DNA of 64,000 bases, taken from positions 62,001 through 126,000 of the forward strand of contig NZ_VCNL01000004.1 of assembly GCF_007671685.1 (NCBI RefSeq), read 5' to 3'. Below the pieces are notes generated by a model that was given only the letters and a program-made list of their open reading frames with translations, searched no databases and was not told where the DNA came from. This document shows positions 4,258-64,000 of the stretch, in pieces. Source of the stretch: Halorubrum salsamenti (GTDB lineage Archaea > Halobacteriota > Halobacteria > Halobacteriales > Haloferacaceae). The position numbers were made by a program, and so were the translations under genes. Numbering within the stretch: position 1 is the stretch's first letter; each line of letters starts with the position of its first letter.

Positions 4258-4530
4258 TCACTCACCGCCGTCAGTTGGTTCAACGTCGTCCGGGTACGGT
4301 TGCTTCCCCGCATCCGGATCAGGTTCGCCGATGATATCCATGTCATCCTCGTCAGGGTGTCCCTGTGTCGTCTCTTCGATAGCATCCGGGTACGGTTCCT
4401 TCCCCGCGTCCGGGTCAGGCTTGCCAATAATATCCATGTCCTCATCGTCAGGATGGCCTTGTGTCGTCTCTTCGATATTATCCTGGTCCGGTCGCTCTCC
4501 CGCGTTCGGATCTTCGTCGTTGCTTGGCAT
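4258..4530 (-). CDS. Small acidic tandem-repeat protein
   Basis: The 90-residue product is built from about 32-residue repeats. Two near-identical copies share EETTQGHP, then DMDIIG, then PDPDAGK and PYPD, and a third degenerate copy lies at the N-terminus. It is dominated by D, E, P and G with no hydrophobic core, so it is probably disordered. The repeats are also visible as DNA repeats of about 96 bp. It overlaps the tail of the decayed ATPase on the opposite strand. The repeats keep their frame and acidic bias, which supports translation, but no function is known. Confidence 0.5.
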   Translation of the reverse strand: MPSNDEDPNAGERPDQDNIEETTQGHPDDEDMDIIGKPDPDAGKEPYPDAIEETTQGHPDEDDMDIIGEPDPDAGKQPYPDDVEPTDGGE

Positions 4531-34279: not shown

Positions 34280-35275
34280 TCAGATGTCGTCCAGGTACCC
34301 GCGCCGCTGCTCCATTTTCACCTCCTCGGACCGCTTGTCGTAATGCTCGTCGAGGACCTTTCGGCTCACGTTCATCCGGTCGCTGACGACGTCGACGGGC
34401 ACGTCGCTGGTGAGGAAGTGCGTGATACTCCCCCGACGGATGGCGTGCGGGCTGACCGCCTCCGGGCACTTCGACTCGCCGCCTTCGCAGTCCGGACAAC
34501 TGACATCCCGGTAGCACGGCGCGGTCACGCGGTACGTGAGCCGTCGGATCGTGTTGCCGTGCATCCTGCCGTGCGCCGTGGTGAACAGCGGTTCCCGCCC
34601 GTGCTCGTCGGTCACGTCCCTCCGATGGGTCCGGATGTACTCCGCGAGCACTTCGGCGACGTCGGGCGTGAGCGCGACGGGGCGCTGACCGCTCTTCCCG
34701 TTCTTCAGCGTCGTCCCCTCGTCGGGCCGGTGGATCAGTTGAACGTAGTTCTCGTCGAGGAAGACGTCGTCCACGTCGAGCGAGTGCGCGGACCCGACGC
34801 GAATCCCCGTCTGCCAGAGCAGCGCCATCACCGCGTGCTCCTTCGACGCGTACTCGTACTTCGACAGGTACTCCAGGATCTCCTGAGCGTCGTCTGCGTC
34901 GAGCGTCTCGTCGCGCTGCCGCTCTTCCGGGCGGACCCGCGGGACCATCACCTTGTCGTACAGGTTCTGCGGCACCGCTTCGATCGACCCGGCCCACTTC
35001 AGGAGCACGCGGAGCGTGGACATCTGCATCCGGAGCGAGAGCTTGTTCAGGTCGCCGTCTTCCTTCCGCCAGAGCCGGTACCGCTGTAGGTCCCGGCCCG
35101 TGAGTTCGTTGAGATTGTCGATCTCCTCCTCGCCGCACCACCGAACGAACGGGTTCAACCGGTATCGGTGGTTTTGAACGGTCGAATCGGTACAGTCGGT
35201 CGCCTTGTGATCCAGGAACAGCTCCTGCGCGGTCCCGGGTTCGATCGGTTCGAGATCGTCTTTGTCCGTGGTCAT
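34280..35275 (-). CDS. Tyrosine recombinase (XerD/phage integrase family)
   Basis: A 331-residue integrase. An N-terminal SAM-like core-binding domain (TAQELFLDHKATDCTDSTVQ...) is followed by the catalytic domain with QTGIRVGSAHSLDVDDV (first Arg), SPHAIRRGSITHFL (HxxR) and DEHYDKRS (Tyr). A Cys pair region (CYRDVSCPDCEGGESKC) precedes HxxR. It resembles the recombinase at 30920 but lacks the membrane tail. The ATG at 35275 is used; a GTG at 35284 is possible. It stands at the edge between low and high G+C DNA. Confidence 0.88.
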   Translation of the reverse strand: MTTDKDDLEPIEPGTAQELFLDHKATDCTDSTVQNHRYRLNPFVRWCGEEEIDNLNELTGRDLQRYRLWRKEDGDLNKLSLRMQMSTLRVLLKWAGSIEAVPQNLYDKVMVPRVRPEERQRDETLDADDAQEILEYLSKYEYASKEHAVMALLWQTGIRVGSAHSLDVDDVFLDENYVQLIHRPDEGTTLKNGKSGQRPVALTPDVAEVLAEYIRTHRRDVTDEHGREPLFTTAHGRMHGNTIRRLTYRVTAPCYRDVSCPDCEGGESKCPEAVSPHAIRRGSITHFLTSDVPVDVVSDRMNVSRKVLDEHYDKRSEEVKMEQRRGYLDDI

Positions 35276-35517
35276 AGTTGTCACGGACCCCCGTCAGGAG
35301 ACGCCTCGACGCCGAAACCGGGAGGGAAGGAACCCCGCGCGGTCCGCGGATTATCCGCCCCAACCCATCCGGTCGCCTCATGATTGTGAAGGAACCCAAC
35401 CACGCGCAGCCGTAGGTTTCACCCTGCTTCTACTTATCGGTAGTCGTCGCATCCGCTCCAGCAGCCGGCAGATCGGCGCAAGAGGTGGTTCGGTGGCACC
35501 GAGTGGGAACGCAGTCC

Positions 35518-37378: not shown

Positions 37379-37894
37379 TCACTCGTTCGTCGCGCGGACG
37401 CGGTCCGCGATCGCCGCGGCGGTCCGATACTCTGCGTCCGAGTACGCGATGACCCGCACGTCCGAGAGCGTCGCGGGATCGTACGCGTCGATCGTCTCGC
37501 AGACGCACCGGGCGCCCGCCTCGAAGTCGAGGCCGGCGGCGCCGGTACCGAGGACCGGCACGACGACCGATTCGCAGCCGAGGTCGTCGGCCTTCGCCAA
37601 CGCGTTTCGAGTCGCCTCGCGGACGGACTCGACCGTCGCGCGGCCGTCCCCGTAGTGCGGCATCGCGGCGGCGTGGATCACGTAGTCGGCGTCGAAGTCG
37701 TACGCGTCGGTGACCGCGACGGCGCCGAGGTCGATCGGCCCCTTCGAGACGGCCTCGTCGTTTATCGGCCCGCCGGCGTTTCGGCGGAGCGCGCCGGCGA
37801 CGCCGCTTCCCATCTGCAGGCTGGTTCCGGCGGCGTTCACGAGCGCGTCCGCGCGCTGTGCGGCGATGTCCCCCTGAACGACGTCGAACTCCAT
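37379..37894 (-). CDS. Macrodomain protein (ADP-ribose/O-acetyl-ADP-ribose hydrolase type)
   Basis: A 171-residue single macrodomain: DVVQGDIAAQRADALVNAAGTSLQMGSGVAGAL supplies the adenine-binding Asp and the NAA loop, and VVPVLGTGAAGLDFEAGA the diphosphate loop. Macrodomains remove or bind ADP-ribose groups. The start at 37894 matches the family. A promoter-like A+T-rich stretch is at about 37220-37280 but belongs to the other side. Confidence 0.88.
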   Translation of the reverse strand: MEFDVVQGDIAAQRADALVNAAGTSLQMGSGVAGALRRNAGGPINDEAVSKGPIDLGAVAVTDAYDFDADYVIHAAAMPHYGDGRATVESVREATRNALAKADDLGCESVVVPVLGTGAAGLDFEAGARCVCETIDAYDPATLSDVRVIAYSDAEYRTAAAIADRVRATNE

Positions 37895-37958
37895 GGCTCG
37901 ATATCGGGCGGCCGGAAAAATAACGTTCACTCCGCGCTGCGCTTGTCCGCGAAGGGTC

Positions 37959-38651
37959 CTACGAGCCGTCGGACTTCTTCTCGTCGACGGTTTTCTCGAC
38001 GGTTTCTTCCACCGTCTCTTCGACCTTTTTGTCGACGGTTTCCTCGACCGTCTCCTCGACCGTTTCGCCGACCGTCTCTTCGACAGTCTCCTCGACCGTC
38101 TCCTCCACCTTCTCGCCGACCGTCTCCTCTACCTTCTCGCCCACGGTCTCCTCGACGGTCTTCTCGACCGTCTCCTCTACCTTCTCGCCCACGGTCTCCT
38201 CGACTTTCTCACCGACGGTCTCTTCGACGGTCTCACCGACCGTCTTCTCGACTTCCTTGCTGACGGTCTCGCCCACGCTCTTCTCGACTTCCTTGCTGAC
38301 GGTTTCACCCACGCTCTTCTCCACCTCTTTGCTGACCGTGTCGCCGACCGTCTTCTCGACTTCCTTGTTGACGGTTTCGCCCACGCTCTTCTCAACCTCT
38401 TTGTTGACGGTTTCGCCCACGCTCTTCTCGACCTCCTTGCCGACCTGATCGGCGACCTCGCGGGTCATCCAGTCGGGGTCGAACCGGGCCATCTTCCAGA
38501 CGACGTGGACGACGTAGGAGGCGAACACACCGATCCCGAACGCCACCCCGATGTCGTTCACGTTGAGCGTCGCGATGAGCACGATCGCCAACGCGATCAG
38601 CGCGCCGTAGGCGATGTCGGTGATCGCGTCGACGCGGGCGGGGCTCACCAT
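37959..38651 (-). CDS. Membrane protein with a long repeat-built coiled coil
   Basis: From ATG 38651 the product is 230 residues. Two hydrophobic helices lie at about residues 11-30 and 33-53. From residue 72 onward there are near-perfect 12-residue repeats of the type KEVEKSVGETVN (about six), then 8-residue repeats of the type EETVGEKV and EETVEETV (about ten), ending EKKSDGS. The charged, Val/Thr-spaced repeats should form a coiled coil or extended beta structure in the cytoplasm. The repeated DNA extends over 37990-38430. A longer upstream frame lies antisense to trm1 and is rejected. Confidence 0.75.
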   Translation of the reverse strand: MVSPARVDAITDIAYGALIALAIVLIATLNVNDIGVAFGIGVFASYVVHVVWKMARFDPDWMTREVADQVGKEVEKSVGETVNKEVEKSVGETVNKEVEKTVGDTVSKEVEKSVGETVSKEVEKSVGETVSKEVEKTVGETVEETVGEKVEETVGEKVEETVEKTVEETVGEKVEETVGEKVEETVEETVEETVGETVEETVEETVDKKVEETVEETVEKTVDEKKSDGS

Positions 38652-38858: not shown

Positions 38859-39986
38859 ATGGACATCGAGGAGGGCGGTCTCACCGTCGCCGTTCCGGAG
38901 GCCCGAGACGGGGCCAGCGAGGGCACCGGCGGCGGGGTCTTCTTCAACCCCACGCAGGAGCTGAACCGCGACGTGACCGTCGCGGTGCTGCGCGCGTACC
39001 GCGACCGCGAGCCGCGCGCGGCGTCGTACCTCGACGCGATGGCGGCCTCGGGAGTCCGGGGCGTCCGCGCCGCCGCCGAGGGGTACGACGTCACCTGCGC
39101 CGACGTGGACCCCGACGCGGTCGACCTCGCGGGCGAGAACCTCGCCGCCAATGACCTCGACGGCGAGACCGTTCACCGCGACGTCAACGCCCTGCTGTAC
39201 GAGAACGTCTTCGACGTCGTCGATCTGGACCCGTACGGGACGCCGATCCCCTTCGCGGACGCCGCGCTGGCGAACGCGCGCAACCTCGTCTGCGTCACCG
39301 CGACCGACACCGCGCCCCTCTGTGGCGCCCACCTCAACAGCGGGATCCGCAAGTACGGCGCGGTCCCGCGCAACACCGACTACCATCCCGAGATGGGGCT
39401 CCGGACGCTGATCTCCGCGCTGGTCCGGACCGCCGCGCGCTACGACAAGGCGGCCCGCCCGATCGTCTCGCACGTCTCGCGCCACTACGCGCGGACCTAC
39501 CTCGAACTGGAGTCGGGCGCGCAGGCGGCCGACGACTGCATCGACGAACTCGGATACGTCGATCACTGCGAGGACTGCCTCTGGCGCGAACCGACCCGCG
39601 GGCTGATCGCGGACCCCGTCGACGCCTGCCCCGTCTGCGGGAGCGACCGCGTGCTCACCGCCGGGCCGATCTGGCTCGGTCCCGTCGCGGACGCCGACTT
39701 CGCCCGCGCGGTCCGCGAGCGCGTCACCGACGACATGGGCGAGGCGAAGCGCGCCCGGAAGCTGCTCGGAACCGTCGCGCGCGAACTCGACACCCCCACG
39801 CACTACGACCAGCACCGCCTGTACAAGGAGTGGGGCGAGCCCGCCATCGGGATGGACGAGTTCGTCGATCGCCTGCGGGGCGCCGGCCACGAGGCGAGCC
39901 GCGCGCACTACCGCGGCACGGCGGTCAAGAGCACGGCGTCGATCCCCGAGATGCGGGCAGCGATCCTCGGCGACGACGCGGCCTGA
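38859..39986 (+). CDS. trm1: tRNA (guanine-26-N2)-dimethyltransferase Trm1
   Basis: A 375-residue class I SAM-dependent methyltransferase that doubly methylates G26 of t[22 protein letters not shown] is the SAM-binding motif [16 protein letters not shown] the DPYG catalytic motif, and [24 protein letters not shown] a Trm1-specific block. A zinc ribbon is present (CEDC and CPVC). The ATG at 38859 matches the family N-terminus ([14 protein letters not shown]). It is divergent from the repeat coiled-coil gene. Confidence 0.95.
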
Positions 39987-62948: not shown

Positions 62949-63112
62949 AGACGACCGATCGCTCGGACGGCGGCTGGGGACGGAGGGGAGTACAGGGCGA
63001 GAGGGAGTACAGGGCGAGAGGGAGTACAGAGGGGCGGATCGATCGTTTCTCACACGATCGATCGGTGTGAAAAACAAAATTATTATATGTGATGAATACA
63101 AGTATCTATGGT
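62949..63112. repeat. Tandem repeat and promoter region before the binding-protein gene
   Basis: A 17-bp unit starting agtacagggcgagaggg repeats at 62989-63005 and 63006-63022, with a partial third copy to 63030. An A+T-rich run (aacaaaattattatatg) at about 63073-63090 is a promoter candidate, suggesting the binding-protein gene has its own transcription. Confidence 0.55.
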
Positions 63113-64000
63113 ATGCCTGAACAAGGTAACTCGGAGAGGAACGGCGACTACCTGACACGGCGGAAAATGATCGGTACCGGAGCGGCCGGCGTCGGCGTGA
63201 TGCTCGCCGGTTGTAGCGGGGGCGGCGACGGTTCCGACGGCTCCAACGGGTCCGACGGTTCCGACGGCTCTGACGGCTCCAACGGGTCCGACGGCTCCGA
63301 CGGGTCCGACGGGGAAGTGACGGACAACCCGATGGAAGCGCTCCACGGATGGACCGGCGGCGACGGAGCCGAAGCCGCCGCGGAGATCGTCACGATGTTC
63401 GAGGAGCGCTACCCCGACTACGAACATCAGATCGAACCGGTCGGCGGCGACGCGAACGTGAACCTCAACGCGACGGTCGCTCGGCGGCTCGCGAACCGGA
63501 ACCCGCCGGACGCGTTCGCCGGCTGGCCCGGCCTCAACATGGCCCAGTACGGCGGCACGCTGGACAGCCTGACGGAGATCTACGAGGAGAACGGCTGGGA
63601 GGACGTGATGGTTCCCAAGGCGCTCGAGGCGTGCCAGATGAACGACGAGTACCGTGCCGTTCCGCTCGGGTCCCATCGACTGAACAACCTCTTTTACAAC
63701 GTCAGCGTCCTCGAAGAGGCCGGCGTCAATCCCGACGACATCACCGACTGGGACTCGTTCACCACCGCGCGCCAGGCCATCGCCGACGAGACTGACTACA
63801 TCCCGGTGACGACGACGACGATCGCGCCGTGGACGGTCCTCCAGTACTGGGCGCAGATCATGTTGGGTACCGAGGGACAGGAGCCCTACGAGGCGTGGCT
63901 CGCGGGGGACGGCAACAAGGACGCGCTCGTCCGCGCGCTCGAGAAGACGCAGGACTTCGTCCAGACCCACACAAACGAGGACCGAGCGACGCTCAGCTTC
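63113..64000 (+). CDS. ABC sugar-binding lipoprotein, cut by the window end
   Basis: ATG at 63113 opens a frame that has no stop before base 64000 (296 codons seen). LTRRKMIGTGAAGVGVMLAGC is a twin-arginine signal with lipobox split across residues 14-34. A low-complexity linker made of Gly/Ser/Asp repeats (DGSDGSNGSDGSDG) precedes the mature domain, which resembles family 1 solute-binding proteins (AAAEIVTMFEERYPDYEHQI, PPDAFAGWPGLNMAQYGG, GSHRLNNLFYNVSVLEEAGV). It would deliver sugars to the importer powered by the upstream ATPase. Confidence 0.9.
   Translation, partial: MPEQGNSERNGDYLTRRKMIGTGAAGVGVMLAGCSGGGDGSDGSNGSDGSDGSDGSNGSDGSDGSDGEVTDNPMEALHGWTGGDGAEAAAEIVTMFEERYPDYEHQIEPVGGDANVNLNATVARRLANRNPPDAFAGWPGLNMAQYGGTLDSLTEIYEENGWEDVMVPKALEACQMNDEYRAVPLGSHRLNNLFYNVSVLEEAGVNPDDITDWDSFTTARQAIADETDYIPVTTTTIAPWTVLQYWAQIMLGTEGQEPYEAWLAGDGNKDALVRALEKTQDFVQTHTNEDRATLSF

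Follow-up and report, generated by a model that had tools for sequence, protein, structure and literature searches.

The window analyzed here is a 64,000-nucleotide stretch of the Halorubrum salsamenti genome (contig NZ_VCNL01000004.1, positions 62,001 to 126,000). The gene of interest lies on its minus strand and encodes a small membrane protein with a repetitive tail. The gene, its parts and selected genes near it are listed below by window position.

37959..38651, minus strand: whole gene (230 residues plus stop) for a two-helix membrane protein with a tetrad-repeat tail, based on translation and homologues; divergent from a TRM-family tRNA methyltransferase gene.
38466..38651, minus strand: conserved N-terminal domain, residues 1-62, based on column identity and an AF2 block with pLDDT 73-86.
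38562..38618, minus strand: hydrophobic (membrane) helix 1, about residues 12-30, based on 19-residue hydropathy windows above 1.6 and an AF2 helix at 4-28.
38496..38552, minus strand: hydrophobic (membrane) helix 2, about residues 34-52, based on hydropathy windows starting at 33-34 and an AF2 helix at 31-56.
38463..38498, minus strand: near-invariant motif WKMARFDPDWMT, residues 52-63, at the membrane exit of helix 2, based on an alignment of 32 members.
37986..38465, minus strand: tetrad array of 40 xxxV units, residues 63-222 (V66 to V222), based on valine phase; mostly helical in AF2 at low confidence.
38226..38441, minus strand: tetrads in triplets (GKEV EKSV GETV type, 12 residues), residues 71-142, based on Tandem Repeats Finder and valine phase.
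37986..38225, minus strand: tetrads in doublets or single (EETV / GEKV type), residues 143-222, based on Tandem Repeats Finder and valine phase.
38859-39986, plus strand: TRM-family tRNA methyltransferase gene (Pfam E 5e-86), divergent from the repeat gene.
37379-37930, minus strand: macro-domain gene (Pfam E 7e-26), just downstream of the repeat gene on the same strand.
34280-35284, minus strand: phage-integrase-family gene (Pfam E 3e-12).

Two hydrophobic segments near the N-terminus of the 230-residue open reading frame agree with the pair of membrane helices proposed in a preliminary description of this DNA, and hydropathy and AF2 concur in placing both helices within residues 4-56. Residues R6, K53 and R56 lie on one side of the membrane and the short interhelix loop contains no K or R, an arrangement that by the positive-inside rule would place the tail in the cytoplasm. 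Across 32 diverse aligned members, mean column identity is 74% over residues 1-72, and W52, K53, M54, R56, F57, D58, P59, D60, W61, M62 and T63 are invariant, with A55 nearly so. Position 60 is E or N in some family members outside this alignment. The membrane domain is identical to that of the H. persicum homologue (L037), and the Halorubrum loci covered in full among the best 80 of 123 matches in a scan of GTDB genome contigs show 83-100% identity over the first 83 residues. A second Halorubrum lineage of 10 genomes (L209-L218) carries a diverged version with 50-58% identity to the window protein's first 83 residues. The tail of this version contains a DRRPR segment close to its start, and the gene has no PiT permease gene nearby. 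Separately, an ending of the form VQxQVEAVxERVDRRPREDEVEE after the tetrad array is conserved in L084, L085 and most other members of the A4 alignment.

Among the best 80 of the 123 GTDB-contig matches, the TRM gene is a neighbor in 28 loci, all Halorubrum-type, and it is divergent in 28 of the 29 loci of that type; the other locus has only 46 bases upstream. A macro-domain homologue is found in only 5 of the same 80 loci.

The tail comprises about 160 residues of repeats, as initially described, and ends at about residue 222. Its regularity is above chance: all 40 tail valines fall in one phase of 4, compared with a maximum of 21 in 20,000 shuffles. The tetrad letters in the window protein are mostly E/G, E/K, T and V. 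Tandem Repeats Finder reports periods of 36 bp at 38243-38444, 12 bp at 37979-38252 and 72 bp at 38045-38270, and the 12- and 8-residue units are multiples of the 4-residue tetrad. The switch of period that had been described midway along the array is a change in higher-order grouping only, from KEV-EKSV-GETV triplets to EETV-GEKV doublets, while the valine period of 4 never slips.

Such an array could in principle be a recent, unstable expansion with no function, particularly as the arrays are tandem and close relatives differ in length. The codons argue against this. When the six 12-residue units are compared, 66 of the 87 base differences lie at third codon positions, and the 780 pairs among the 40 valine codons show 365 differences at position 3 and none at positions 1-2. 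Because third positions have diverged while the protein pattern has been kept, the array is, judging by its codons, not a fresh copy and is maintained as protein. The pattern is also class-wide, with 4,967 of 5,444 valine gaps being exactly 4 in 152 distinct relatives (6 of 158 distinct proteins were dropped). Recent slippage without function is rejected on these two grounds and is scarcely credible as an explanation. The preliminary description had named a lack of homologues with the same repeat type as the mark of a recent, roleless expansion; the family instead spans the Halobacteria. Its expectation that the array grows and shrinks is borne out: lengths range from 115 to 362 residues among the 152 distinct relatives (partial proteins included), with array length changing mostly in tetrads and the protein pattern kept as silent sites diverge.

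Family members are present in 206 of the 292 class genomes, which makes about 70% of the haloarchaea examined, in 41 of 294 genomes of the phylum, each of them in the same order, and in 50 of 52 genomes of the window's genus. The GTDB-contig scan returned 123 stretches with a relative, and the best 80 of these all have haloarchaeal titles. Eight plasmid records also contain a relative, all haloarchaeal. No relative turned up when viral contigs were scanned with the domain alignment, and a phage origin was rejected on that basis. The family is unnamed and has been seen only in haloarchaea, phyla beyond the window's own being covered by the GTDB-contig scan alone, which reaches close relatives.

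In Pfam and NCBIfam, no match to the window protein reaches its curated cut-off, and the membrane domain carries no family name. Nearly all of the weaker matches fall in the low-complexity tail. The sole match that extends well into the membrane domain is to NCBIfam DrpB/YedR (residues 38-96), which was rejected at 13 bits against a cut-off of 50. Membership in DUF445 was likewise rejected, as the match scores 29.1 bits against a Pfam gathering threshold of 33.8 and covers residues 59-220, which is the repetitive tail. Two matches to the tail of relative L107 do exceed their cut-offs and were treated as effects of composition: Cornifin, a eukaryotic skin protein (38.0 versus 34.8), and CdrL_M (31 versus 27, with 26 of 77 positions covered). 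A search of the literature, largely its open-access part, returned no recognizable account of this family.

Outside Halorubrum, the gene is typically found beside a permease of the PiT/PHO4 family. Neighbor genes for this analysis were chosen by GC3, as clustering of all open reading frames was swamped by antisense shadow frames. A PiT gene lies within 5 kb in 41 of the 51 non-Halorubrum loci among the best 80 of 123 GTDB-contig matches, and one lies within the same distance in 50 of 60 regions from 58 genomes in the class search. These 60 regions were picked from the listed best class matches before their neighbors were known; none comes from the genus, only two come from family f4, and six duplicate loci of the first set. 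After merging, a CysP-like PiT/PHO4 permease adjoins the gene in 88 of 105 distinct non-Halorubrum regions, with some of the misses on short contigs (L063, L081, L095) and others not. The second commonest neighbor family in the class-search set reaches 8 of 60 regions. With 4 PHO4 genes across the 3.67 Mb of the window's genome, about 1% of 10 kb stretches taken at random would be expected to contain one. Among the 50 linked regions, the permease is directly downstream on the same strand in 33 (-5 to +101 bp between match ends), divergent at 130-339 bp in 15 and convergent only in 2. The permease is closest to type A in 38 of 41 permease-bearing loci of the first set and in 46 of 50 of the class-search set. 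In two plasmid records, the repeat protein and its permease neighbor carry the annotations 'hypothetical protein' and 'inorganic phosphate transporter', respectively. No PiT gene was found near any of the 29 Halorubrum-type loci among the best 80 of 123 matches (a few with short flanks, and one from a Halobacteriales MAG) or near the 10 loci of the diverged Halorubrum group, for a Halorubrum-type total of 0 of 39.

As an observation on copy number, some genomes have a second family copy within about 5 kb (L084 4070-4549; L089 9052-9255; L104 9647-9832; L207 9643). These copies, too, have PiT permeases and often UspA genes as neighbors, as would be expected had the pair and its permease been duplicated together.

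The gene is also co-inherited with one permease clade. The A3 model of linked permeases was run on the same 292 class genomes, and a strong PiT match (E ≤ 1e-170, a threshold picked after the values had been seen) is present in 196 of 206 genomes with the gene versus 12 of 86 without it; at E ≤ 1e-180 the counts are 192 of 206 versus 11 of 86. The Fisher p-value of 7e-45 is descriptive only, as the genomes are related and it overstates their independence. The comparison within genera is more telling. Sixteen genera include genomes with and without the gene, and in nine of these (g6, g9, g17, g30, g39, g49, g63, g65, g69) the strong match tracks the gene perfectly, for example in 4 of 4 genomes with the gene versus 0 of 4 without it in g39, 1 of 1 versus 0 of 13 in g6 and 4 of 4 versus 0 of 2 in g30. 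Three genera are mixed, with a strong match in 1 of 3 gene-less genomes in g2 and 1 of 2 in each of g44 and g45. Genera g25, g61 and g74 are exceptions in which the permease stays without the gene, and g59 has neither. Six loci were retrieved from the 12 exceptional genomes with the permease clade and no gene, and none has a copy of the gene within 3 kb of the permease copy inspected. The converse case, the gene without a strong clade match, is seen in 10 of 206 genomes.

A phylogenetic tree groups the 11 partnered type-A permeases as monophyletic with support of 1.000, apart from 17 distinct unpartnered PiT sequences taken from 12 chosen genomes without the gene. The window's genome has one permease of the partnered clade (C12:831393-832556), which is about 75% identical to the closest linked ones and is located on another contig.

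The linked permeases tested belong to PHO4 by Pfam (E 3e-41 and 6e-38). In NCBIfam they match the CysP sulfate permease best; the three permeases scored reach 136-160 bits, short of the equivalog cut-off of 400, and by these scores the linked permease is CysP-like only. The two GAND aspartates of the solved structure of TmPiT (6l85) align to T and N in one permease, and T and N are invariant at these positions in ten A3 rows; unpartnered haloarchaeal PiT paralogues likewise lack the GAND aspartates. PMC5840216 describes both aspartates as indispensable for phosphate transport, notes that G and N replace them in B. subtilis CysP, and gives sulfate:H+ symport as the predicted mechanism of CysP. 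Given the best match to CysP, the T and N at the aspartate positions and these statements of PMC5840216, the partner permeases are more likely to carry sulfate or a similar oxyanion than phosphate. The likeness to CysP and PiT (PHO4) is confined to the permeases, which are PHO4 members closest to CysP with both signature aspartates replaced, whereas the repeat protein itself is not a transporter. A small two-helix subunit with a repeat tail is not known to us for either CysP or PiT, and none appeared in the literature searched. DUF47/PhoU-like Pit accessory proteins are also encoded beside PiT transporters, but DUF47 is a soluble helical bundle without a membrane hairpin or tetrad repeats, and it is absent from the Pfam matches of the window protein and the locus proteins tested. 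The acidic C-terminal loop of the permease was considered as a specific docking site and rejected, as unpartnered paralogues also have it in varied form.

Single-chain AF2 models were made for the window protein, from a 59-row alignment, and for a 156-residue relative, from 20 rows. In both, most of the tail is predicted to be helical, with low confidence (pLDDT blocks of 40-68, compared with 72-86 for the hairpin). The tail is probably a long acidic helix. In an alpha-helix, residues spaced 4 apart form a stripe that drifts by about 40 degrees with each unit and comes full circle after about 36 residues, so over that distance the hydrophobic stripe would face every direction. No solved structure provides a template for the tail; the weak matches are the acidic tail of ribosomal protein L17 (two sequences), a VgrG chain and ribosomal eS1.

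The VgrG match raises the question of a beta-helix like the octad needle of T4 gp5/VgrG, which is also valine-rich and built in multiples of 8 residues. The matches are weak (Gp5_trimer_C at E 0.0023 and 18.5 bits, or 23.8 bits in L107, and the VgrG chain at E 0.039), and both Gp5_trimer_C scores fall below the curated cut-off of 30.9. The gp5 octad consensus places a glycine two residues after the valine, a feature found in only 50 of 4,967 tetrads. Three-residue gaps, of which 104 of 150 relatives have at least one, are odd-numbered and suit a helix rather than a strand, and AF2 predicts the tail as helical with no strand. The beta-helix was rejected for its missing glycine, the missed cut-off and the lack of AF2 strand, and is very improbable. 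A tail that forms an oligomerizing coiled coil or fiber-like stalk, with the permease link being secondary, has more in its favor: AF2 gives low-confidence helix over most of the tail, and the 3-residue gaps lower the mean period to 3.7-3.9 in many relatives, with 34 of 150 below 3.9. As in right-handed coiled coils (hendecad 11/3, pentadecad 15/4, YadA 19/5), the stripe drifts in the same sense and the chain is probably helical. However, PMC4786415 gives a hydrophobic period of about 3.3-3.9 for coiled coils, expects an upper limit near 3.9 with 4.0 outside the accessible range, and cites 3.8 as the most extreme spacing. The 40 valines of the window protein, all spaced exactly 4, lie beyond that range (about 3.33-3.9), and mean spacing is at least 3.9 in 116 of 150 relatives, of which 46 are at exactly 4.0. 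From its spacing, the tail would be either not a classical coiled coil or something new, and an ordinary oligomerizing stalk is unlikely. A helix with spacing of 4.0 could still associate in a non-classical manner. A more speculative reading, which we hold to be equally unlikely as it stands, has the tail form a regular assembly in which each turn about the axis takes exactly four residues, over as many as 66 consecutive hydrophobic positions (the longest unbroken run in 150 relatives). Such an assembly would go beyond the coiled-coil limit, as a helical supercoil or a new fold, and would serve as a length-tolerant cytoplasmic arm that clusters or gates a CysP-like permease at molar salt.

The reading that we favor, with moderate confidence, is that the protein is a dedicated auxiliary subunit of one haloarchaeal clade of CysP-like PiT (PHO4) anion permeases that probably carry sulfate or a similar oxyanion. 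The highly conserved two-helix hairpin and the WKMARFDPDWMT motif would form the membrane part of the protein and would also dock on the permease. The acidic, probably helical cytoplasmic tail would then be a multivalent arm that tolerates changes in length, rather than a ruler of fixed length, since a drifting stripe would present sticky faces all round each helix. Such an arm may cluster permeases or regulate them, in either direction. The preliminary description had offered a spacer, a filament or a scaffold; permease linkage and co-inheritance point to a transporter partner and away from a free filament or spacer, and leave room for a scaffold or arm.

Linkage to and co-inheritance with a single transporter clade are expected of an auxiliary subunit, and both are found (88 of 105 regions; 196 of 206 versus 12 of 86 genomes), yet 0 of 39 Halorubrum-type loci are linked. 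Also against a subunit are the 12 of 86 gene-less genomes that have the permease clade and the 10 of 206 with the gene and no strong match. The annotation of the neighbor as a phosphate transporter and a CysP score far below the cut-off weaken the case for sulfate or a similar oxyanion. An alternative is that the protein is co-regulated with the permease but has a separate role of its own, such as that of an envelope or stress protein, with the operon reflecting a shared nutrient or salt signal and no complex. The UspA-type stress proteins and DASS-like transporter near many Natrialba/Natrinema-type loci are in keeping with this, as is the unlinked state of the pair in Halorubrum. Co-regulation does not account for a gene that tracks one permease clade and not its paralogues, or for both genes being kept after they became unlinked in Halorubrum, and we regard it as rather doubtful.

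The subunit reading provides a functional lead with a testable partner for an unnamed family, and suggests that the PiT permeases of one clade operate together with a subunit of this kind. Independently of the permease, the family supplies natural sequences with a strict period of 4.0, some about 260 residues long, that allow a direct test of the stated upper limit on helical supercoiling. Alternatively, such sequences may adopt another fold, perhaps only at high salt.

Elsewhere in the window, Tandem Repeats Finder reports a 96-bp tandem repeat at 4289-4512 (2.3 copies, 82% match). A 27-bp array of 3.2 copies at 63226-63312 lies close to a perfect 17-bp repeat of 2.6 copies at 62986-63029.
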